This document shows, in pieces, positions 882-19,998 of a DNA stretch of 20,036 nt. Position 1 is the first letter of the stretch; each line of letters begins with the position of its first letter. The translations under genes were made by a program, and so were the position numbers. The notes beneath the pieces are model-generated. The model did not search any database, was not told the origin of the DNA, and was given only the letters and a program-made list of their open reading frames with translations. The stretch comes from a virus, in the IMG/VR virus record IMGVR_UViG_3300006101_000654, positions 1 through 20,036 of that record; one strand, 5' to 3'.

Positions 882-2507
882 CTATACCCCGTTTGTGTGG
901 ACGACTTCCTGATACCCACCGAGGTAGGGGTTCAGTGCCCCTGCGATGCCTGTGTATGGATAGGCCGCTCCGCTCGCCCAACAGATGCGCACAACGCCGT
1001 TTCCACCTTGAGGCCACCAGCCGATTGGTGGCGTGAAGGACTGGTTGTTGTAACTGGGGTTGTTGTTGATACCGCCGTAGCCGACAGTAATCGTGTAGGT
1101 GTTTCCTTGCACGAGACTGATGTTGTTAGCGTAAAGCAACGCTCCACCGCCACCACCGCCTGAACCCGTCCCAGCGTCGGGGGTTGCGTTCGCACCGTTT
1201 CCACCAAGACCACCGCCTGGGAAGCCGCCGTTGCAATACAGATACGCCTGCGGAGTATTGGTTGAGGTGAAGCCAGCAAACGTACCGCTAAGAAAGTTGT
1301 AGTAGTTGATGAGGCCACCGCCAGCAGTTCCCGTGTTGCCCCAAGTGGAACCGCCGAAGCCACCGTAAGTGTTGTACGAAGCGGCGCCAACCGTGTGGGC
1401 AGAGCAAGGGTTTGCAACCTGTCCGTTGTTTTGACTTGGAGTGACATACCAAGTCGTGTACGTCGTTGCTGGGCCGCTGTACGAAACTAGCGTGCAAGAC
1501 AATGCACCTGTGGCAGAGTTGTACGAAGTTACCTGTTGGATTGAGTAATAGTAATACGTTGTTCCACCAGCATCTGTTTGGGGGGTGAACGTAAGGTACA
1601 TACCCGTGGTGATTGGAAGTCCTGTTCCAATGGTTCCCGACCATGAGGCTGATAACGCACGGGCAGTTGACGTTCCCGACGTTCCCCAGCCACCGTAAAT
1701 GCCCGTGCCACCGCCACCACCACCGAAATAGGTTTCATTGTTGGTGTTTCCACCAGCACCACCGCCGCCGCCGCCCCCAGCAGCGCCAGTAGTCCCTGAG
1801 GCATTGTTCGCCCCACCCGTTCCACCAGCAGCATTGTAACCAGCGCAACCGCCGCCGCCAGCCTGTCGAGCAGCACTCCCCGTTCCACCAGCGCCACCTG
1901 CATAACCTGAGTACGTTACGGTTCCAAGAGTTCCTGATGTTGAAATGGCTCCGCCTGCTCCGCCCGTAGGGTTTGCGCCCGTTTTTCCACCATTAGCGGT
2001 AAGCGTGTACGTTCCATTGGAGAACGATGATGAGCCACCATTGCCGTAGTTGGAACTAGCAAAGGGCGTTCCACCAGAGCCAGAGCCACCGCCACCGCCG
2101 ATGCAAAGAATGGTGGCTGTGGCGGTCACGGGGCTTACCCAAGAGTAAGTGGTGGAATAACCGCCCGTACCATTGAATGGAATGTTTCCGTAGCCAACGT
2201 ACAACGTGACACTTGTGGTGATACCCGTGGCGCTTGACACTGTGAAGGTCGTGGCACTCACAACTGAAGCGACCGTCGTGACGTTCCTGCATACCGAGGT
2301 GGCGGTGGACGTAAACACGTTCATTCCAGCAGAGATGTTTCCCGTACTGGCGACGGTTACCGTCGTTCCCGAAACCGCCGACACAGCGTAAGCGTTGTAG
2401 TTGTTCGAGGTTGGTAGAAAAAGATGCGAGTAAACTGTGCGTGTGTCGGTAGTCTCAAACCCTGCACCACGAGCCGTTCCTTCAGCAAACGTATTTGGAA
2501 AGGGCAT
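882..2507 (-). CDS. Glycine-rich tail fibre / adhesin protein
   Basis: This 541-residue protein has an N-terminal part (about 1-100) containing a small beta module ending TGITTSVTLYVG. A long glycine-rich domain (about 110-500) follows, opening with a YSWVSPVTATATILCIGGGG segment and closing with NGVVRICWASG. Glycine-rich domains framed this way are typical of phage tail-fibre tips and receptor-binding adhesins. The start was placed at the ATG that overlaps the stop of the upstream collagen-like gene (TAATG). An 11-residue upstream extension is possible but less likely. It is the second member of a collagen-like plus glycine-rich pair; the other pair lies at 4818-9400. It is likely a virion surface protein, with host-range variation expected. 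The exact assignment as fibre tip is inference. Confidence 0.8.
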   Translation of the reverse strand: MPFPNTFAEGTARGAGFETTDTRTVYSHLFLPTSNNYNAYAVSAVSGTTVTVASTGNISAGMNVFTSTATSVCRNVTTVASVVSATTFTVSSATGITTSVTLYVGYGNIPFNGTGGYSTTYSWVSPVTATATILCIGGGGGSGSGGTPFASSNYGNGGSSSFSNGTYTLTANGGKTGANPTGGAGGAISTSGTLGTVTYSGYAGGAGGTGSAARQAGGGGCAGYNAAGGTGGANNASGTTGAAGGGGGGGAGGNTNNETYFGGGGGGTGIYGGWGTSGTSTARALSASWSGTIGTGLPITTGMYLTFTPQTDAGGTTYYYYSIQQVTSYNSATGALSCTLVSYSGPATTYTTWYVTPSQNNGQVANPCSAHTVGAASYNTYGGFGGSTWGNTGTAGGGLINYYNFLSGTFAGFTSTNTPQAYLYCNGGFPGGGLGGNGANATPDAGTGSGGGGGGALLYANNISLVQGNTYTITVGYGGINNNPSYNNQSFTPPIGWWPQGGNGVVRICWASGAAYPYTGIAGALNPYLGGYQEVVHTNGV

Positions 2508-3511
2508 TAGTACTTGACCTGTGAGGCAAAGACCGTCCAAGTGCTGGTACCCGTTGACATGATGGTGAACGTGTACACGTCAACGGTTGATGGGTTGGCG
2601 CTCGATGGAGCGGTGCCACCCTGCCAAAACGTTGTGATGCCATTTGACGTGTTGCCACTTGGTGGAAACTGGGTTGTACTTGAGTACGAGTTTGTTCCAT
2701 TGAGCGTGTAGGTAAACGGGGCATACGCAGTCGCACCGTTCAGTACTGAAAAGACTACGGTGGCGGACTGACCAGAAGTTGTTGGCGCACCCGTGATTGC
2801 AATGGTGTACTGACCGCCGACACCACCGTTGTAATAGGCGAAGGCAGGGTTAGTGGCAAGTGCAATGGTGACCGTGCTGGAAGATGCGATTGAACTACCA
2901 CCGAGAGTGAATGCCTCGTAGGGAGCATTGAACACGGCGTTCTGAGAGACGGCTGAGTTTCCTTGGTTGCCCTGAAAACCTTGGTTTCCCTGAGGCCCTT
3001 GAGGAAGGGTAAAGTTGAATACGCCCTGACCAGCAGTTGCGGAGACGTTGGTGACGATTGCAGGGTTGGGGTACGCCGTTGTGGTGACCGTACCGACGGC
3101 AATGGAAGATTGGTTACCTTGAAATCCTTGGTTACCTTGGAAACCTTGATAACCCTGAGGCCCAATCAAGGTTGACTGGGCACCTTGGATACCCTGTACG
3201 CCCTGAACTCCTTGCACCCCTTGGATACCCTGATTGCCCTGAAGTCCCTGTGAGCCGACGACGGCGGTAACCCACGAGCCGATAACGAGCGGAGTTGATG
3301 TGGTGATACCCGTTGAGTTGGCAACAAGAATGTTGGTCGAACCTACAATCTGCGTAATGACCGTGTTTACACCAGCGGACGCATTCTCCACTGACATTCC
3401 GACAGCCATACCAGTGGTAGAGGTGAAAGTAACGTTATTCGGGGCACCACCCACAAAGACGGGCGTAAACGGAGACCCAGATACTGGGACAAAATACTTC
3501 AGTTGTGCCAT
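2507..3511 (-). CDS. Collagen-like tail fibre protein (short paralog)
   Basis: This 334-residue protein carries Gly-X-Gln collagen-type repeats at about residues 85-135 and again near 170-185. Between them is a module of roughly 40 residues starting SSIAVGTV and ending NFTLPQG, a common spacer in phage fibres. Residues 20-75 form a small beta module ending TGITTSTPLVIG. The C-terminal 110 residues (from GAPTTSGQSATVVF to the final KY) match the C-terminus of the 1085-residue fibre at 6143-9400. Trimeric collagen-like fibres are known in tailed phages, and this is likely a virion appendage. The ATG lies one base after the kinase stop (TGAAATG). Its stop overlaps the next start as TAATG, suggesting translational coupling with the glycine-rich protein. 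Confidence 0.85.
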   Translation of the reverse strand: MAQLKYFVPVSGSPFTPVFVGGAPNNVTFTSTTGMAVGMSVENASAGVNTVITQIVGSTNILVANSTGITTSTPLVIGSWVTAVVGSQGLQGNQGIQGVQGVQGVQGIQGAQSTLIGPQGYQGFQGNQGFQGNQSSIAVGTVTTTAYPNPAIVTNVSATAGQGVFNFTLPQGPQGNQGFQGNQGNSAVSQNAVFNAPYEAFTLGGSSIASSSTVTIALATNPAFAYYNGGVGGQYTIAITGAPTTSGQSATVVFSVLNGATAYAPFTYTLNGTNSYSSTTQFPPSGNTSNGITTFWQGGTAPSSANPSTVDVYTFTIMSTGTSTWTVFASQVKY

Positions 3512-4818: not shown

Positions 4819-6143
4819 TAGTTGACCACCTCGTTTGTCGTGGTATTTACATTAGTTGACGGGAAGTTGCGAGTAAGACCAGCGATGCCCCACACGATGC
4901 GCACCGCCCCACCGCCTGCGCCAGCCTGAATGTTGGCGGCTAGGCTAGGGCTGTTTACCGACCCAGAGGCTGTGGTTCCGCTGTACGTCGAGTTGACCGT
5001 GAAAGAAGATGCGTTAGCACTGGTAATCAGGTACGTCCCGTTATAGGTGGCATTGATGCCACCTAGGTAAACGAACTGCCCTGCCTTGAAGGTGTTTGAG
5101 GCAGTAACAGTTGTCACGCTTCCGTTCCCAGTTATTGTGACGGGATTTATGAGCGTTGATGTTCCACCACCACTTGCAGTTCCTACCTGCACCGTGTACG
5201 TTTGATTTGGAACGACTGAGTAGTTGTTGATGTATGCCAATGCTCCACCACCGCCAGAAGCAATGCTTGCAAAGGTAGTGGTCTGCCCAGCGCCACTGTA
5301 CGGCGGACTTGGGACGCTAAACCCTGCGCCACCGCCGAACGCTCCACCGCCACCCGAACCGCCGTAGTCAAGAGTTGGTGATTGGTAGTTGCTCCAAGAG
5401 ACACCTATACCGCCAGCAAGCCCATAAGTACTCGTGTCTGAAGCGCCAGCCGTGCCCACCGTGTCTATTTGATTGCCACTTGCGTCCGACTGTCCGCCGT
5501 TTCCACCAGCAGAACTTCCGCTACCGCCACCTGTTCCGCCCGACGCAACGTTGGAAGCAAAGGTGCCCTTTGCCCCACCCGTTCCTGAGTAGCCAGAGTT
5601 TGCGCCATACACGCCCGTTCCGCCACCACCACCGCCGCCGCTCACTCGTGCGCTGTTTTGGTAGTAGCCAGACCCGCCACCACCGCCGCCGTCGGTTGAC
5701 GTTCCGCCTGCACTTCCGCCACCGCCAGTATTTAGTGTCGAACCGCCTGCACCGCCCGTGGAAGAGTATCCGCCTGCGCCACCGCCACCTGCACCGTTGT
5801 AGGCGTTGCCAGCACCGCCTGAGCCACCAGTTCCTGCCAAAACCGTGCCACCCGTACCGTTGGCTTTTCCACCAGAAGAAGCCACAATGCTTGCGTTTCC
5901 AAAGTACGAAGTTCCGCCGCCGTACAATCCACCGCCTGCGCCAATGCACACAATGCTGACGTTGTACACACCTGCTGGGCACGTCCATGTGTACGTTTGC
6001 ACATTGTTTGATGCCGTGGAAGAAAGGGAGTACTGAGTTGCCGTGTAAAGGTGCGAGCCAGTTGATTGGTTGAATTGAACGGTTTGGAACTCACCGTAAG
6101 CGTCCACCGACATCTCTGCTCGTGCTGAAATGATGGGGGACAT
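4818..6143 (-). CDS. Glycine-rich tail fibre / adhesin protein (paralog)
   Basis: This 441-residue protein has an N-terminal lead (about 1-50) and then TYTWTCPAGVYNVSIVCIGA, which opens a glycine-rich domain full of GGGG runs (about 70-320). The domain closes with GGAVRIVWG near residue 415. The arrangement matches the glycine-rich protein at 882-2507. Within the domain, residues about 330-395 form an inserted beta module (TASNTFKAGQFVYLGGINAT). A very similar module occurs in the 1085-residue fibre directly upstream (TASNSLVAGQEVYITGATGN). The protein is expected on the virion surface as a fibre tip or adhesin. The start overlaps the upstream stop as AAGTACTAATG, the same 11 bases found at the other collagen/glycine-rich junction. 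Confidence 0.8.
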   Translation of the reverse strand: MSPIISARAEMSVDAYGEFQTVQFNQSTGSHLYTATQYSLSSTASNNVQTYTWTCPAGVYNVSIVCIGAGGGLYGGGTSYFGNASIVASSGGKANGTGGTVLAGTGGSGGAGNAYNGAGGGGAGGYSSTGGAGGSTLNTGGGGSAGGTSTDGGGGGGSGYYQNSARVSGGGGGGGTGVYGANSGYSGTGGAKGTFASNVASGGTGGGSGSSAGGNGGQSDASGNQIDTVGTAGASDTSTYGLAGGIGVSWSNYQSPTLDYGGSGGGGAFGGGAGFSVPSPPYSGAGQTTTFASIASGGGGALAYINNYSVVPNQTYTVQVGTASGGGTSTLINPVTITGNGSVTTVTASNTFKAGQFVYLGGINATYNGTYLITSANASSFTVNSTYSGTTASGSVNSPSLAANIQAGAGGGAVRIVWGIAGLTRNFPSTNVNTTTNEVVN

Positions 6144-9100
6144 TAGTACTTATTCAGGTTTAGGAGTAGCGTCCAAGTATTGGTGCCCGTACAGATTACG
6201 TTGATGACGTACACATCGAGGGTAGAAACGTCCGCACTAGACCACGCCATTCCACCTTGGTAGTACGACGTGATGCCGTTGTTCGTAGCACCTTGCGCTG
6301 GGAGAGTGGTGAACGATGCGGTTGACGTTGCACCCGTGGCTGGATTTGTTACCGAGAAGGACGACGACGTGGCGCTGAGGACAACCCACGAACCGTTGAA
6401 GTTGCTGTTTCCTGTCGCACCCGTAATGTACACTTCCTGCCCTGCTACCAGAGAGTTGCTGGCAGTGTAGGTAACAACGCCACCCGTATACGAAATGGCA
6501 GAGATGGCAGTCGAAGCGCCCGCTTGGTATCCGTTCACTGAAATGTTGCTGGGCAAGTACGCAGTTGCCGAGTTGTTGACCATGAGGGCAACTGTGATTG
6601 ACTGACCAGCAGTAGTTGGAGCATTTGTCAAGTTCAACTGCCACGGAGCGGTTGGTGAATACGAGTTGTAGTAGTACACCGACTGGGTGTTGAGAGGGAT
6701 TGACGCTGGGACGGCGTTGCTCAACTGCGCCGTCGAGAGGTTTACGCTTTCGATTGGTGAAGCGATGATGGGGAAGTTGATGATGGGCGAAGTCAGGGTC
6801 TTGTTCGTAAGGGTCTGAGAAGCCGTCGTTCCCACAACCTGCTGGGCAATACTGGCTGGGTCGTAGGTGGACGTACTCATGTTTCCACCACCCTGAGGGC
6901 CTTGAGTACCATTCCCCGAAGCGGTTGTGTCTAGCCAGAGAAGCGTCGTGTCGTATGGGGGCAGACCGTTGCCAGAGGTGAAAATGCCTTGCGCACCTTG
7001 GTTACCTTGGTTTCCTTGATTACCCTGATAGCCCTGCGCACCGCTGGTTCCATTTGTGCCTGCCTGACCCTGTGGGCCTTGTGGCAAAGTGAAGTTGAAC
7101 AGTCCTTGCCCAGCAGTCACACTGACGTTTGTGACGACGGCGGGATTGGCGTATGACGTGGTGGAAACAGTGCCGACGGCGATTGAGGATTGGTTACCTT
7201 GGAACCCCTGATTTCCTTGGACACCCTGAAGCCCCTGATTGCCCTGATTTCCTTGGTTACCCTGTGCCCCTTGATAAGTGACTTGTTGGGCAGTGAAAAT
7301 AACCCCAGGAGTTGCTGGGACGGTGGGGCTTGTCTGCGAACCTGAAGTGGTGATGGCAATAGTTGTACTAGACGGTGCCCACATCAACTGAATGTAGTCG
7401 TTTGCATTGGCGTTGACTATGTAGTTGATAGAGGCGATTAGTGCGCCAGAACCGCCGTGGCTATTTCCTGAGACGTTGTAGATGGAGTTGCTTTCAACAA
7501 CGTCAACACCGTTTTGGCGTATCCATACGTCCACGTTGTCGGAGTTACTGTCCGAGTTGGTGAACTGGATTGAGTACTGAACGTTGTACGTTCCTGCGTT
7601 GCCAAACGTAACTTTGTTTCCACCAACAATGGTCACGCCGTAGTTGGCAACTGTTGTGTTGATGTTTACGATGTTGGCAACAGTCGTGGAAGAAACGGTT
7701 TGCGTAGTTGTGTCGTAAGCAGAAAGGTAGTTGGCGATTACACCACCAGCACCCTGAATACCCTGCGGCCCTTGTGGGCCGACGGAGTTGGTCTGAATGA
7801 ACGAGATGTTGTCGGTGCCAATGCGAATTGAGCCGTCAGGATTGGAACCGTTGCCATTCTCAATCCATGCCGTTCCTGCATAGACCGTTCCGTCGGTAAC
7901 GAAAACGTAGTCGCCTTCTTCGACCTGACCAACGAGGTGATTGTCGTAGTCGGTAGCACGGGTCAGTTTCCATTTTGCCGATGACGAGCCAGTGGCGGTG
8001 ACTGTGTAGATGCCGTTTTGGGTTTTGTCAGACTGACCAGCAATAAGAACACGGTCACCGACTGCAAGGTAAGGGGTGGTGTAACCATCAATCGAAAGGG
8101 TGCCGTTCGTCGTCGCAACAATGTATGCCCCGACACCCGTACCGTTTTCAGCGTCTGCACTACCAGCCGTGTATGAAGGAGAGTTTCCAAGGGGCGTAGT
8201 TTGGACTGCCTCACACGATTGGTGGGCGTTCAGCGTTGAGGAAGCGCCTTGGACACCTTGCGTTCCTTGGACACCTTGCGTTCCTTGATTTCCTTGATTT
8301 CCCTGTGAGCCAGTGTTACCTTGTACACCTTGCACGCCCTGTGTACCTTGCGCACCAGTGTTACCAATTAGCCCTTGATTACCTTGGAACCCCTGATTGC
8401 CCTGTACGCCCTGTACTCCTTGCGTACCCTGCACTCCTTGAACGCCTTGTACGCCGTTATTGCCGCTGTTGCCTTGGTTTCCCTGTAGACCTTGCGAACC
8501 AACCGCACCCGTAAGGAAAAGGGTGTTTGGGCTACGAGGTACACTGTCGCCAACCGAGTAGTCAACCGTAAAGATGACGTAGGCGCTTGCTGGAAACGTT
8601 CCGTCTACGGTTGTCAAAATGCCTTCTGCATAGTTTGTTGTAGGCGCTGATTGAGCGCACAGTCGAACTCGCTGACCAACTTGAAGTGCGCTAAAGCCGT
8701 AAGGATTTCCACTGTTGAATGGAGTGGAAATTGTTAGCGTTGTTCCGACAAGGCTCGCCCCATAGGTAATGGGTTGATTGTTGTTTACAACTGGCGTGTA
8801 CCCAACACCTTGGAAGCCTTGGCTTCCCTGTGTCCCTTGACTTCCTTGCGTCCCCTGAAAGCCTTGGGTACCTTGGGTACCTTGGGTACCCTGCGTGCCC
8901 GTAGAACCCCACTGAAGCCCTGATGCACCAACAGTGAGCACTTGTCCCGTAGAGCCTTGTGGCAGTCGAGCGAGTGAGTTGGCACCTGAGCCAATGAGAA
9001 GGTCGCCAGATGCGACGATTTGCCCAACGGTTTCAGCAACGGCGTAGTTTGCCTCTGAGATGTCCGTCGAGGTCATGATTGGAACAACGGACGCACCCGA

Positions 9101-9400
9101 AGCGTGCGACATTCCAGTACCCGACGTAGCGGTGTCAAACGCACGCACCACGCCCGTCAAAGTGACATTAGAACCTGACCAGTTGTAGACGTTGGCTGGG
9201 ACGTAGATGTGCTCTTCGAGCGACGTTCCGTAGTCGAGGGCGAGGTAGAAACCGCCGTTGATGCCAAGTCCTGCCCACGAGCCGATGCCTGCCGAGAAGG
9301 TCAGGTAGATGGTGGTATCCGTGGCCCCGATGGGCGACGTTAGAAGCGCAGCGTATGGTTCGCCCGTGTAACTGTTGAGCGAATAGGGAGTTCTTGCCAT
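6143..9400 (-). CDS. Large collagen-like tail fibre protein with C1q/TNF-like domain
   Basis: This 1085-residue modular fibre reads in order: an N-terminal virion-attachment part (about 1-170, with GDLLIGSGANSLARLPQG near its end); collagen-like Gly-X-Gln repeats (about 172-203); a beta domain (205-298); a long collagen stretch (298-390); and a domain with AVGDRVLIAGQSDKTQNGIY (about 440-465), common in phage fibres. Next come a C1q/TNF-like jelly-roll (about 555-700, with VTFGNAGTYNVQYSIQF), two further collagen segments around an SSIAVGTV module (about 700-815), and a C-terminal module ending NKY. Trimeric virion fibres are built this way. The C-terminal module carries a small inserted beta domain (TASNSLVAGQEVYITG) that the short paralog at 2507-3511 lacks. 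AGGGG lies 5 bases before the ATG. A small hairpin separates it from the upstream gene. Confidence 0.88.
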   Translation of the reverse strand: MARTPYSLNSYTGEPYAALLTSPIGATDTTIYLTFSAGIGSWAGLGINGGFYLALDYGTSLEEHIYVPANVYNWSGSNVTLTGVVRAFDTATSGTGMSHASGASVVPIMTSTDISEANYAVAETVGQIVASGDLLIGSGANSLARLPQGSTGQVLTVGASGLQWGSTGTQGTQGTQGTQGFQGTQGSQGTQGSQGFQGVGYTPVVNNNQPITYGASLVGTTLTISTPFNSGNPYGFSALQVGQRVRLCAQSAPTTNYAEGILTTVDGTFPASAYVIFTVDYSVGDSVPRSPNTLFLTGAVGSQGLQGNQGNSGNNGVQGVQGVQGTQGVQGVQGNQGFQGNQGLIGNTGAQGTQGVQGVQGNTGSQGNQGNQGTQGVQGTQGVQGASSTLNAHQSCEAVQTTPLGNSPSYTAGSADAENGTGVGAYIVATTNGTLSIDGYTTPYLAVGDRVLIAGQSDKTQNGIYTVTATGSSSAKWKLTRATDYDNHLVGQVEEGDYVFVTDGTVYAGTAWIENGNGSNPDGSIRIGTDNISFIQTNSVGPQGPQGIQGAGGVIANYLSAYDTTTQTVSSTTVANIVNINTTVANYGVTIVGGNKVTFGNAGTYNVQYSIQFTNSDSNSDNVDVWIRQNGVDVVESNSIYNVSGNSHGGSGALIASINYIVNANANDYIQLMWAPSSTTIAITTSGSQTSPTVPATPGVIFTAQQVTYQGAQGNQGNQGNQGLQGVQGNQGFQGNQSSIAVGTVSTTSYANPAVVTNVSVTAGQGLFNFTLPQGPQGQAGTNGTSGAQGYQGNQGNQGNQGAQGIFTSGNGLPPYDTTLLWLDTTASGNGTQGPQGGGNMSTSTYDPASIAQQVVGTTASQTLTNKTLTSPIINFPIIASPIESVNLSTAQLSNAVPASIPLNTQSVYYYNSYSPTAPWQLNLTNAPTTAGQSITVALMVNNSATAYLPSNISVNGYQAGASTAISAISYTGGVVTYTASNSLVAGQEVYITGATGNSNFNGSWVVLSATSSSFSVTNPATGATSTASFTTLPAQGATNNGITSYYQGGMAWSSADVSTLDVYVINVICTGTNTWTLLLNLNKY
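8240..8510 (-). repeat. Collagen-like coding repeat, 9-base unit
   Basis: Degenerate tandem 9-base units encode Gly-X-Gln triplets (GVQ, GTQ, GNQ, GFQ). This is the longest uninterrupted collagen-like block of the fibre gene, about 90 residues. Third-position glutamine dominates and proline is absent, so stability would not depend on hydroxyproline. Shorter blocks of the same kind occur around 6990-7085, 7190-7275, 8800-8905, 2955-3005 and 3105-3255. Confidence 0.85.
8862..8888. repeat. Perfect tandem triplicate of a 9-base unit
   Basis: CCTTGGGTA is repeated three times without change and encodes three Gly-Thr-Gln triplets on the minus strand. The neighbouring units differ at synonymous positions, so this stretch looks like a recent slippage product and a likely site of length variation. 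Confidence 0.9.
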
Positions 9401-16427: not shown

Positions 16428-17378
16428 TTAGTGGTTTCGGAACTCTGCGCCCGTGTCAGCGCCAGTGTCACGACTTAGATTTTCGGCAACGGTGCTTGCG
16501 CCTCGTGCAAGCATGGTGTTGTCACGGAGAATAGGACTTGTTGAGCCGCTTGCGTGTTGTTCGGCAACCCAGTTGTGAAGTTCTGCGGCGTGGTCGTGGG
16601 CGGCGATTGCCGACTTCAGAGCGCCCTGCTTCTCAGGGTTAGTCTCCTTGGCAAGGGCGTTTTTCAGCACTTGGCTGGCAATGCCGTGCTCGAAGGCTGC
16701 TGCACGGTGGGCGTTGGCGATTTGTGCGCCAGTACCACCGTGCTGAACAAGGTCACGAGCGTGCGAGGCAGCCATGAGAGCAGACCAGCCAGCGCCGTCC
16801 CGTCGTACATGGTCAAATCCCTTGTCGAAGGGGTTTGAGGCGTACTGATTGCCGTGAAACTCGTGGCCCTTTACGTCGCCCTTCGTCACAAAAGACTTTT
16901 CAGCACCAGAGAGGATGACGTTGCCGTCGGTCACGCCTGCATTGCGACCAGACGTTGCCTTCATGGTTGCATCGGCGGCCTTCAGGGTGTTTTCAGCACT
17001 GGGGTTGTCGGCAGCGGCGTAGTGTGCGGCTGCTGCGGCTTCGTGCAACTTGGCGGCACCCTCTTCCATTGCGTATGAACGCCCGTTGGGGTTGTGGTAA
17101 CTGGCGGCAAGTTGACGCATGCGGCCTGCCTCTTCGAGGTGCATACGAGCCATGCGGTCATGGGCCATGGTGGAAACGGTTGGCAACTTTTTGCCTGCGC
17201 TCGCTGCCATCTGCGACGCTCGGTCACGAAGTGAGTTCAGAGCATCCCGTGTTTCACCCGTGGAACGAGCCGTGTATTGGTTGCCGTTGAAAGCATGGCC
17301 TGCCAACTCGTACTTCAGGATTTCACTGGCGGACTTCCAAACTGGAACCAGTGCGTCAGTAGAGAAGGGGTTTTCCAT
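16428..17378 (-). CDS. GHxFxGNQ-motif protein 2 (two-unit, unknown function)
   Basis: This 316-residue protein looks like two units of the same family in tandem. Unit 1 (1-150) starts MENPFSTDALVPVW, has GHAFNGNQY at 27-35 and an Ala/His-rich helix region (KLHEAAAAAHYAA). Unit 2 (about 158-316) has TKGDVKGHEFHGNQYASNPF at 165-184, then IANAHRAAAFEHG and AIAAHDHAAELHNWVAEQHA. The start overlaps the stop of the upstream paralog as TAATG. Its own TAA lies inside the AAGGAG site of the downstream paralog, so all three are translationally linked. There are no catalytic residues, no membrane segment and no signal peptide. Structural or DNA-condensing roles are possible but unproven. Confidence 0.72.
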   Translation of the reverse strand: MENPFSTDALVPVWKSASEILKYELAGHAFNGNQYTARSTGETRDALNSLRDRASQMAASAGKKLPTVSTMAHDRMARMHLEEAGRMRQLAASYHNPNGRSYAMEEGAAKLHEAAAAAHYAAADNPSAENTLKAADATMKATSGRNAGVTDGNVILSGAEKSFVTKGDVKGHEFHGNQYASNPFDKGFDHVRRDGAGWSALMAASHARDLVQHGGTGAQIANAHRAAAFEHGIASQVLKNALAKETNPEKQGALKSAIAAHDHAAELHNWVAEQHASGSTSPILRDNTMLARGASTVAENLSRDTGADTGAEFRNH

Positions 17379-17884
17379 TAGAGGTTTCCCATGCCTTTCG
17401 TCATTTCATCAGCGTTGGCGCTGGCGTAAGAAGCGTTTTCCGAAGCGTCCTTAGCCGAAGCAACAAGAGCGTTCATCTTGTTGCGAGAAACCGTGCTACC
17501 CGTGGCTGGCTTGATTGACTGCGTAGCGACCTTTGCTGAAGCGGAAGAAGCCTTGATGTGTGCATCTGAGGCGGCGTTGTGAGCGTCAATCGCCTTGCGT
17601 GCTGCGCCCCACTTGGAGAGGGGGATTTTCGCACCCTTCATTCCTGCCTCGATTGCCTTAGCAGCCTCTCGGTGGGCAAAAGCAATGTTGCTGTGTTCGC
17701 CAGCCGAACCAGCGCTGTTTCCGCCACGCACGTCTTTGAGCGTCTGTAGGGCGTGGTCACGAAGTTCACCAGAAGCAGTGGTGTACTGGTTCCCGTTGAA
17801 TGCGTGCCCAGCAGTCTCGTATTTCACCACGGGGTAGCGAGAGAGGGATTTGAGTAGTTCGTCGGGGTGGAAGCCAGATGACAC
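17378..17884 (-). CDS. GHxFxGNQ-motif protein 3 (Ala/Ser-rich, unknown function)
   Basis: This 168-residue protein starts at a GTG with AAGGAG six bases upstream. Residues 17-34 (YPVVKYETAGHAFNGNQY) carry the family motif. Then come IAFAHREAAKAIEAG (about 68-82) and AIDAHNAASDAHIKASSASA (about 98-117), matching the 'AHRxAA ... AIxAHxxAAxxH' pattern of its two neighbours. The N-terminal NPFSTDAL block is replaced by GFHPDELLKSL. It is the first gene of the three-gene paralog set and follows the intergenic region with the plus-strand RNA candidate. The function is unknown. Confidence 0.7.
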   Translation of the reverse strand: MSSGFHPDELLKSLSRYPVVKYETAGHAFNGNQYTTASGELRDHALQTLKDVRGGNSAGSAGEHSNIAFAHREAAKAIEAGMKGAKIPLSKWGAARKAIDAHNAASDAHIKASSASAKVATQSIKPATGSTVSRNKMNALVASAKDASENASYASANADEMTKGMGNL

Positions 17885-17957
17885 GAAGTTCTCCTTGTCG
17901 GGATTTCTACCTCAGATACTACGCCACGATTTCCTAAACCGATGTTCCAAAACCCCA

Positions 17958-17986
17958 TTGACGGTGGTGATAAACGGTGCTAGACT
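17958..17986 (+). promoter_or_regulatory. Plus-strand extended -10 promoter
   Basis: TTGACG (17958-17963), 17 bases, then TAGACT (17981-17986) preceded by TGC, giving an extended -10. The predicted start is near 17993. It is the only convincing promoter seen on the plus strand, and no plus-strand protein gene follows it. Confidence 0.6.
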
Positions 17987-17992
17987 TCGCCC

Positions 17993-18071
17993 GACTGACT
18001 TGGGGGCGCTGGACACAACGCCAAGTACATTCACACCGACCCCTGCCGAAAGGTGGGGGATTCGGTTTATT
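17993..18071 (+). ncRNA. Candidate small RNA on the strand opposite to all genes
   Basis: From the predicted start, about 79 nt can fold into two stem-loops. Stem 1 (17999-18025) pairs CUUGG..CG with CGCCAAG around a ten-base loop CUGGACACAA. Stem 2 (18035-18066) is a 13-bp stem with a GAAA tetraloop followed by UUAUU. Two G-U pairs in stem 2 become A-C mismatches on the opposite strand, so the plus strand is the better folding one. A 14-base segment (18008-18021) recurs at 19925-19938 and is therefore complementary to the lysin mRNA start. No tRNA or known RNA family is recognised. Confidence 0.45.
18035..18071 (+). terminator. Terminator-like hairpin ending the plus-strand RNA
   Basis: ACCGA-CCCCTGCC, loop GAAA, GGTGGGGG-(AT)-TCGGT, then TTATT. 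The stem is long and GC-rich, but the T tract is short and broken, so termination may be partial. It overlaps the stop codon of the deformylase gene on the other strand. Confidence 0.5.
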
Positions 18072-18564
18072 GGGGCCTGTTTGCGTCCCAAAGTGAGGTG
18101 AAATGGCCTCGCTCCGCTTCGCCAATGTGCTCCAAGAGCAGGTATCCATCGAGATGGTCTGTCTCGTGCTGAAAGATGCGAGCGAGCAATCTTTCCCCTT
18201 CAATCCTGTACTGGTTCCCGTCAAGGTCAAAGGCCGTCAAGGTCGCTTTGTACGAGCGGCTGATTTGCCACCCGAACTTGGGCACCGACAAGCAGCCTTC
18301 GGGCGTGACTTCGATGTCAAGGGGGTCAGTGAAAACCTCTGGGTTGATGGCGACGTGAGCGCCCGTGCCGTCGCCGCTGTCCCAAACGAACATGCGGTGC
18401 GAGTAGCCGATTTGGTTGGCGGCAAGCCCGACACCGAGGTGAAAGTACATGGCCTCAACCATCTCGGCGGCAATCATCTTTATGTTGTCTGTGATTTCAC
18501 TGACTGGGGTCGTGGGGGCTTCCAAAATGGGGTCGCCGTAGAAACGCACGGCTGGGATGTTCAC
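18067..18564 (-). CDS. def: Peptide deformylase
   Basis: This 165-residue protein has all three deformylase motifs: GVGLAANQ (residues 44-51), EGCLS (89-93) with the metal-binding Cys, and HETDH (133-137) with the catalytic Glu and the two His ligands. It removes the formyl group from the N-terminal methionine of new proteins. The GTG start overlaps the stop of the coiled-coil gene as GTGA and leaves a normal deformylase N-terminus (IPAVRFYGDPIL). Translation is probably coupled. Phage-encoded deformylases are known, especially from aquatic phages, and may support the translation of abundant virion proteins. All key residues are intact. It is the last gene of the small-gene cluster. Confidence 0.95.
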   Translation of the reverse strand: MNIPAVRFYGDPILEAPTTPVSEITDNIKMIAAEMVEAMYFHLGVGLAANQIGYSHRMFVWDSGDGTGAHVAINPEVFTDPLDIEVTPEGCLSVPKFGWQISRSYKATLTAFDLDGNQYRIEGERLLARIFQHETDHLDGYLLLEHIGEAERGHFTSLWDANRPQ

Positions 18565-18827
18565 CGTGCGCCCATTTCTCTCTTCGCCTCTTCGAGCAGT
18601 TCGGCGGTGAAGTCCTCTGGCGACAGTTCGGTCTTGGCGTGGGACATCAACTTGCCGCAAGCGATGCTGAACGCCCATGTGTACAGGCTGAGTTCCTCGT
18701 CGAGGTGCGTCAACTCCTTGCGGTAGCCGAGAACCATCTGGTCGTGCTTGGCAATCAGCCCTGCCATCCCAGTGCGCATGGTAGCCAACTTCTCTTCGAG
18801 GTCGGCAATCTGCTTCGACTTACGCAC
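18561..18827 (-). CDS. Small coiled-coil hypothetical protein
   Basis: This 88-residue protein, from a GTG start, has RKSKQIADLEEKLATMRTGM at its N-terminus and then HDQMVLGYRKELTHLDEELS. It is strongly helical with heptad-like leucines. A short hydrophobic stretch (YTWAFSIACGKLM) lies near residues 49-61. There are no enzyme motifs. It overlaps the Cys-cluster protein upstream by 8 bases and the deformylase downstream by 4 bases, so it is part of a tightly coupled chain. The function is unknown; a coiled-coil adaptor is the most one can say. Confidence 0.65.
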   Translation of the reverse strand: MRKSKQIADLEEKLATMRTGMAGLIAKHDQMVLGYRKELTHLDEELSLYTWAFSIACGKLMSHAKTELSPEDFTAELLEEAKREMGAR

Positions 18828-19364: not shown

Positions 19365-19940
19365 TTACCAGCCGTGACCGCAACCGTACTGGTCGGGGAC
19401 GTAGTTGCCCACGCCGTCGCTCGCCTGAATGCGTCGGGCGACAGTGACCTGCTGAATGGGGGTAGCGTCCGAGGCGTTCTGGGCGAACTGCGTTCCGCCA
19501 AAGCGAACCCAGTTGTAGTTGGTGATGCCAAGTCCGCCTGAGTAGACGCTCCCACGGACGTGCCAGTTCCCGCCTTCTTCGCACTGGTTGACCTTCGCCC
19601 ACTGGCTCATAACGTATGGCGTTATAGACGATGCCCAATCGTGCGCTACGGGCTTCCTAGCGACCTTGTGGTGAACCACTGGGGTTGCGAGGTGCGGACG
19701 GATACCAAGGGCGTGGGGCAAGGGACGGCTTCCGCCGAACCAGAGGATTGTAATCATCTTGGGCGCAGTCGTCCGAGCGGCGAGGTGATGGGCCACCTTG
19801 GGCGCAGCGTGGAACGTTCCTACGACAAGGGAGACTACGACTGTCAGTGCGAGGAAGCCACCTCGCACCGTGCCTAGCACGAGCCTGCCTTGGTAGAGGG
19901 ATAGAACGGTACCGCTATTGGGTTGCTGGACACAACGCAC
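19365..19940 (-). CDS. Rpf-like transglycosylase (cell-wall lysin) with membrane anchor
   Basis: This frame has 191 codons from a GTG. Residues 27-43 (GGFLALTVVVSLVVGTF) form a signal anchor. Residues 105-191 match the resuscitation-promoting-factor-type transglycosylase-like domain: QWAKVNQCEEGGNWHV with Cys120 and catalytic-type Glu121, then YSGGLGITNYNWVRFGG, PIQQVTVARRIQ and a C-terminal YGCGHGW with Cys187. Such domains cleave the glycan strands of actinobacterial cell walls. The protein could be a lysis enzyme or, less likely, a virion-associated entry enzyme. The start is unsure. AAGGAG abuts the GTG at 19940 with no spacing. A GTG at 19880 would still keep the anchor and may be coupled to a 19-residue leader frame. 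A promoter lies upstream. Confidence 0.83.
   Translation of the reverse strand: MRCVQQPNSGTVLSLYQGRLVLGTVRGGFLALTVVVSLVVGTFHAAPKVAHHLAARTTAPKMITILWFGGSRPLPHALGIRPHLATPVVHHKVARKPVAHDWASSITPYVMSQWAKVNQCEEGGNWHVRGSVYSGGLGITNYNWVRFGGTQFAQNASDATPIQQVTVARRIQASDGVGNYVPDQYGCGHGW
19874..19933 (-). other. Possible leader peptide frame in the lysin start region
   Basis: A 19-codon frame starts at a GTG that sits six bases after AAGGAG, the best-spaced start in this region. It ends in TAG, overlapping an in-frame lysin GTG at 19880. It could couple or throttle lysin translation. It rests on spacing alone. Confidence 0.3.
19925..19938. repeat. 14-base sequence shared with the plus-strand RNA candidate
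   Basis: GCTGGACACAACGC is identical to 18008-18021. On the lysin mRNA (minus strand) it is the complement of the RNA candidate's loop and flanks. It covers the last base of the first GTG and the leader GTG at 19933. Confidence 0.55.
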
Positions 19941-19969
19941 TCCTTTGGTTGCCCATTGGGGGATGCACC

Positions 19970-19998
19970 AGTTTACCCGAATGTGACGGATAAGGCAA
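19970..19998 (-). promoter_or_regulatory. Promoter upstream of the lysin gene
   Basis: TTGCCT (19998-19993), 17 bases, then TAAACT (19975-19970) on the minus strand. Transcription would start near 19963 with a leader of about 23 bases. Each box has four consensus matches. It would drive the lysin and the small-gene cluster down to the deformylase. Confidence 0.5.

Follow-up and report, generated by a model that had tools for sequence, protein, structure and literature searches.

We identified a putative small RNA gene in a 20,036-base virus record with head and tail genes (the whole of which is referred to as the window), and the RNA it would encode has a stretch perfectly complementary to the start-codon region of a leader ORF elsewhere in the same record. 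The leader overlaps the gene for an exported cell wall hydrolase, and in one group of related phages the RNA and the leader carry a matched base change. The RNA is most probably a trans-encoded antisense RNA that, beginning with a loop-loop contact, blocks translation of the leader and thereby of the enzyme.

Genomic context and structure of the putative small RNA gene

Among cultured phages, the major capsid protein of the window has its closest counterparts in Arthrobacter and Microbacterium phages (the three best matches share 51-52% identity), and the host is therefore likely to be actinobacterial. Two proteins encoded on the minus strand (2507-3511 and 6143-9400), one of them 1085 aa long, have collagen-like tail-fibre matches (phrog_5073). 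The small RNA gene is situated where two minus-strand genes are separated by 182 nt (17885-18066), a gap put at 180 bases when the DNA was first read. Its parts and neighbours are as follows.

17378-17884, minus strand: 168-aa protein, bordering the small RNA on the side opposite the deformylase
17958-17963, plus strand: -35 box TTGACG of the small RNA promoter
17978-17986, plus strand: extended -10 element TGC-TAGACT, with a 17-nt spacer from the -35 box
17993-18071, plus strand: predicted small RNA of about 79 nt, the 5' end placed from the -10 box
17998-18026, plus strand: 5' hairpin with stem ACTTGG/CCAAGT, whose loop and 3' arm bear the antisense sequence
18008-18021, plus strand: antisense core GCTGGACACAACGC, of which the shared part is TGSACACAACGC
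18035-18071, plus strand: intrinsic terminator, a 13-bp GAAA hairpin with a TTTATT tail
18067-18678, minus strand: peptide deformylase, convergent with the small RNA

A sequence-only reading had proposed a plus-strand small RNA here, with an extended -10 promoter followed by two stem-loops, and its description is borne out. The -35 box, the spacer and the extended -10 element lie where it placed them, and RNA beginning at 17993 folds into two hairpins, the second with 13 base pairs, a GAAA loop and also a 2-nt bulge, followed by the TTTATT tail. It had also favoured the plus strand as the folded RNA; the plus strand indeed folds better than shuffled sequences (z -3.9 and 0 of 200 shuffles as good for 80 nt; z -2.7 and 2 of 200 for 83 nt), whereas the minus strand does not (z +0.81).

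Neither promoter-like sites (8 found, 7.7 expected from shuffles) nor terminator-like sites (17 found, 21.4 expected) are enriched in the window. Because such matches are singly at chance level, the case for a small RNA gene rests on conservation. No Rfam model reaches its gathering score in the window; CRISPR-DR57 (E 5) and a fragment of the c-di-GMP riboswitch (E 7.9) score far under the cut-off. No tRNA was found in the window, and a blastn search against 50,697 phage records gave no match.

The 168-aa protein and a neighbouring 316-aa protein (together 16428-17884, minus strand) have a similar N-terminal stretch. In relatives, tblastn finds more copies of this repeated module beside these genes.

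Conservation of the putative small RNA

Relatives were gathered via the deformylase, the 168-aa protein and the capsid protein. The small RNA unit is present in 13 virus records including the window (W), and 8 distinct sequences were aligned. The other unit-bearing IMG/VR contigs are 3300025773_000006, 3300000439_000015, 3300032241_001154, 3300032284_001259, 3300032241_001301, 3300025383_000182, 3300032236_001244, 3300000176_000034, 3300020718_000010, 3300020732_000270, 3300020716_000642 and 3300032579_000010. Four records (L063, L064, L065 and L186) have an identical RNA, so that the independent lineages number only about five.

The neighbour gene of the unit is exchanged in some records. L029 and L032, in which the deformylase has no tblastn match, retain block 17971-18072 at 83-84% identity. 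In these two the position of the deformylase is taken by an ORF of about 102 aa (L029:4673-4981 and L032:4772-5080), and the small RNA stays. The promoter, 5' hairpin and terminator still form one unit in the more distant L034, L064 and L082, in which the terminator stems differ in sequence and the form is kept. Every small-RNA lineage has a -35 box beginning TTGAC or TTGAT, a spacer of 16-17 nt and a -10 box reading TAGACT, TAGAAT or TAGGCT. A promoter-to-terminator scan recovers the unit in W, L029, L034, L064 and L082.

The RNAs of seven lineages fold with z values from -2.4 to -5.4. In the 5' stem 87.5% of 56 alignment cells are paired, a value that 11 of 500 shuffles match, and two of the seven pairs are changed on both sides, as in 78 of 500 shuffles; we regard stem covariation, taken alone, as modest support. 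For the same alignment RNAalifold predicts 15 pairs, five with changes on both sides. Relatives thus display both the conserved promoter boxes and the compensatory stem changes that had been set beforehand as the check on the candidate, and the region is best read as a gene for a plus-strand small RNA. Like other phage base-pairing small RNAs, the unit has its own promoter and terminator and no conserved ORF.

A covariance model comprising the -10 box and the 5' hairpin found only the known lineages among 66, 51 and 69 loci and 44 whole records. A scan of viral sequences with Rpf-type proteins gave 80 loci, of which 69 were searched with the model, and added no new lineage (L327 is the L034 contig). 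The 85 stretches returned by a 15-mer scan of viral contigs were mostly unrelated single matches, kept if they had a promoter or leader context.

A leader ORF and an exported enzyme as the putative target

The loop of the small RNA hairpin contains TGGACACAACGC. The window has a second copy of this sequence at 19927-19938, which the sequence-only reading had not pointed out, and relatives have one too. The minus strand there reads GCGUUGUGUCCA and holds the start codon of a leader ORF, in the arrangement SD-GCGUU-GUG-UCC. The features of this region are listed below.

19970-19998, minus strand: target mRNA promoter TTGCCT-17-TAAACT, with the same layout by eye in other leaders
19940-19946, minus strand: Shine-Dalgarno sequence AAAGGAG of the leader ORF
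19925-19938, minus strand: target site GCGUUGUGUCCAGC, perfectly complementary to the small RNA core
19922-19936, minus strand: start-codon hairpin GUUGU-GUCCA-GCAAC, formable in all 16 leaders read
19874-19933, minus strand: leader ORF of 19 codons with a GTG start, MSSNPIAVPFYPSTKAGSC, its stop overlapping the next start (GTGCTAG)
19365-19880, minus strand: exported Rpf-like transglycosylase of 171 aa (PF06737), export signal by eye

A promoter of the target type was independently recovered by the unit scan in L038 and L043. The leaders were read from 12 loci with 13 pattern matches; L211/L186 and L064 are one sequence, and the L082 match at 6088 is not a leader but the small RNA gene itself in reverse complement. 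This leaves 11 leaders (W, L024, L026, L029, L032, L034, L064, L082, L187, L192 and L194). Across lineages the leader ORF has 19-25 codons, and in 10 of the 11 it overlaps a downstream ORF (GTGCTAG or GTGA), the L192 sequence being cut by the contig end.

The window enzyme matches PF06737, Transglycosylase-like (Rpf), with 57 bits against a cut-off of 27. Among seven SLT-type proteins, PF06737 matches three and PF01464 two (E <= 0.01), and most relatives have a different lysozyme-like domain behind the same leader. In the window and in L024, L026, L029, L032, L064, L082, L187 and L194 the leader and the signal-like start are constant, and the hydrolase domain is either Rpf-like (PF06737) or SLT/lysozyme-like. 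The control region thus appears to stay while the enzyme is exchanged. A PF01471 wall-binding protein, which may be a separate lysin, occurs in 7 of 14 related records; a PF00589 integrase and a PF01510 amidase occur in none of the 14, some of which may be incomplete.

All 16 leaders can form GUUGU-NNNNN-ACAAC or a variant of it across the start codon, the four inner pairs in every leader and the outer pair in 11; at least four of the five pairs are found in 36 of 386 background windows around Shine-Dalgarno-preceded starts. A 14-row alignment omits L043, which MAFFT shifted, and L194, whose leader is that of the window, both of which are in the 16-leader count. In this alignment 94.3% of the cells pair and the covariation score is reached by none of 500 shuffles; only one pair changes on both sides, a number that 390 of 500 shuffles reach. 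Two more pairs change on both sides, in L043 only. The minimum-energy fold of the 135-nt leader does not include this small hairpin. The 5-nt loop reads GUCCA or GUGCA, matching UGGAC or UGCAC in the RNA, in the core-bearing lineages only, and it differs in each lineage that lacks the core.

Complementarity and co-occurrence

Complementarity to an mRNA start region, as expected of a base-pairing small RNA, is conserved. The contiguous match between each RNA and its own leader is 14 nt in W, L026 and L032, 13 in L029, 12 in L034 and L064 and 18 in L082, and in each of these seven lineages none of 500 dinucleotide shuffles of the RNA reaches it. Cofolding energies as good as the observed were obtained with 3 of 200 shuffles for W, 6 for L026, 0 for L032, 0 for L029, 8 for L034, 1 for L064 and 0 for L082, the gain over shuffles being weaker in L034 and L026. 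Energies from RNAduplex were disregarded, as they included long internal loops. Within the sequence covered for each lineage, no complement of the RNA is longer than the leader; it is the single longest in five of seven cases and shares that place with one other site in L026 and in L034.

In the lineage of L063, L064 and L186 one base is changed in both partners, the RNA having C for G and the leader G for C; the L064 sequences read TGCACACAACGC (RNA) and GCGUUGUGUGCA (leader). The L064 RNA matches its own leader over 12 nt and each of nine other core-bearing leaders over 9, and the RNAs of other lineages match the L064 leader over 9-11 nt. The matched change is a single event.

Among 38 capsid rows, 12 have the RNA and 26 do not. 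The 12-18-nt core match is present in all 10 RNA-bearing rows that cover both sites, L030 and L065 ending too early for the target. In the corresponding table the rows for L063, L064, L065 and L082 also count the reverse complement of the RNA gene as a core position. The core is found in none of the 17 RNA-less rows with the enzyme gene, several of which are near copies; in L059 and L073 the gene is at the contig edge and the leader unread. On the capsid tree the presence of the RNA requires four changes, at least three of them forced by well-supported branches. The distance from RNA gene to target is 1.4-3.1 kb (1.9 kb in the window).

Three records (L194, L187 and L192) have the core and no RNA was found in them, the sequence beyond the target being 2.7, 2.1 and 0.2 kb long. 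L194, with 2.7 kb covered and the RNA absent, counts against the antisense reading.

The leaders of eight RNA-less lineages match the small RNAs over 5-10 nt, and a search of the RNA-less lineages for another leader partner gave no convincing one. L075 has a 65-nt promoter-terminator unit (2509-2610, plus strand; TTGATG-17-TATAGT, strong terminator) downstream of a transglycosylase gene on the same strand. We considered whether this unit could be the partner of the L075 leader instead, which it matches over 7 nt at most; it is possibly a different small RNA in a lineage without the present one.

Proposed mechanism and alternative explanations

We propose that the plus-strand unit at 17958-18071 is transcribed from its own sigma-70-type promoter and ends at its intrinsic terminator. 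In this RNA of about 79 nt, CUGGACACAACGC would be displayed by the 5' hairpin, across its loop and 3' arm, and would pair with the start-codon hairpin of the leader (loop GUCCA), encoded on the opposite strand 1.9 kb away in the same phage. Pairing probably starts loop to loop and extends to 12-18 bp across the start codon, and ribosomes would then be unable to start on the leader. With the leader blocked, the exported Rpf/lysozyme-like wall hydrolase would not be made either, because the end of the leader overlaps the start codon of the enzyme gene. As the duplex covers the leader start codon, activation is unlikely. The purpose may be to keep an exported wall-cutting enzyme off until late; such an enzyme reaches the wall without a holin, which would explain tight control, and a similar reason has been given for the control of bacterial Rpf enzymes (PMC6009663).

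The five-base loop might further serve as a specificity code between competing phages, as in the incompatibility of plasmids with antisense RNAs, an extension that we consider doubtful. A co-infecting relative that shares the loop (GUCCA) would have its wall enzyme silenced by the RNA of the infecting phage, and one whose loop is changed (GUGCA) or whose match is lost would not. If so, the loop changes and losses would be escapes from the RNA of a rival.

It is improbable that the shared 12-mer works instead at the DNA level, as an operator to which a phage repressor binds at both promoters, with no regulatory RNA involved. The core does lie shortly downstream of both promoters, and a repressor of changed specificity would also give a matched change. 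However, one copy occupies the loop and one arm of a hairpin whose stem covaries, and the terminator that follows is constant in form despite wholly different sequences; the extent of the match varies by lineage (12, 13, 14 or 18 nt). The copies are also opposite in orientation relative to their promoters, with the other copy exactly at a start codon. Nor do we think it probable that the small RNA is real but acts mainly on a host mRNA, its phage match being secondary, although host genes are the targets of several phage small RNAs already described (PMC12197685). The leader match is exact in every RNA-bearing lineage that covers it and changes together with the RNA, and a scan of genome contigs with the target pattern gave three matches, none with the leader layout.

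Two further readings are very improbable, each to the same degree. The unit could encode a small peptide, since some lineages have a reading frame that begins close to the core (ATG GAC ACA ACG in L029 and L034, by eye). However, W, L030, L064 and L082 have CTG at that codon, the window has no ATG from 17981 to the terminator (one TTG and one GTG only), and the 3' halves are wholly different save in their folding. The hairpin could also be a mere terminator or spacer between convergent transcripts with a chance promoter match, as the lack of enrichment of promoter-like and terminator-like sites would allow; against this, the promoter boxes, hairpin and core are conserved across lineages with differing neighbours, and the T-rich tail comes after the hairpin on the plus strand.

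To our knowledge, regulatory RNAs of phages are hardly known beyond a few model systems. For the antisense RNA proposed here a target can be named from sequence alone, with a matched base change in both partners, and the RNA points to the timing of an exported wall-degrading enzyme. The finding suggests a general search for repeats shared, within one phage genome, between opposite-strand intergenic hairpins and start codons.

Comparison with known systems

The literature searched, which included few subscription-journal papers, gave no description of the present RNA. Of the phage RNAs that a 2025 review names, the nearest are sar, OOP and PAK_P4as15 (PMC12197685). The sar RNA of phage P22, of 68/69 nt, base-pairs with an mRNA of the phage, whose translation it lowers (PMC12197685). 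Its target differs, being an antirepressor gene, and neither a leader ORF nor a wall enzyme is involved. PAK_P4as15 of Pseudomonas phage PAK_P4 is a proposed endolysin repressor that delays lysis; it is about 550 nt long, cis-encoded opposite the endolysin gene, and, according to the same review, absent from the related PAK_P3 (PMC12197685). In Pseudomonas phage PAK_P3, early antisense RNAs are reported to lie over structural genes (PMC4933390). Highly expressed noncoding RNAs, their function given as unknown, have been described in actinobacterial phages, WC1 and D29 among them (PMC10986025). An antisense RNA of Mycobacterium tuberculosis lies opposite the ribosome binding site of the Rpf gene rpfB; it is bacterial and cis-encoded, and its expression in trans left rpfB expression unchanged (PMC6009663).

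The window has no Rfam covariance-model match to C4 antisense RNA, and by this test the present RNA falls outside that family. The C4 RNA of phages P1 and P7 is likewise a short RNA of phage origin, complementary in stretches to an mRNA of the phage, its target being ant. CopA of plasmid R1, in the CopA-tap-repA system, acts on a leader peptide coupled to the main gene and starts by loop contact; it is cis-encoded with full complementarity and controls replication.

In the Sok-mok-hok system of plasmid R1 a small antisense RNA blocks a leader ORF needed for the downstream gene (PMC4147584). The product here differs from hok, being an exported wall hydrolase of a virus, where hok is a small membrane toxin. 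The sequence encoding Sok overlaps that of its target region, whereas the present RNA gene lies 1.4-3.1 kb from its target, with a 12-18-nt match. With a non-overlapping RNA and a 171-aa PF06737 enzyme as the product, the pair falls outside the type I toxin-antitoxin systems of the Sok-mok-hok family. The mode of action would nevertheless be that of Sok-mok-hok, since the antisense site belongs to a leader ORF with its stop codon overlapping the start of the gene behind it.
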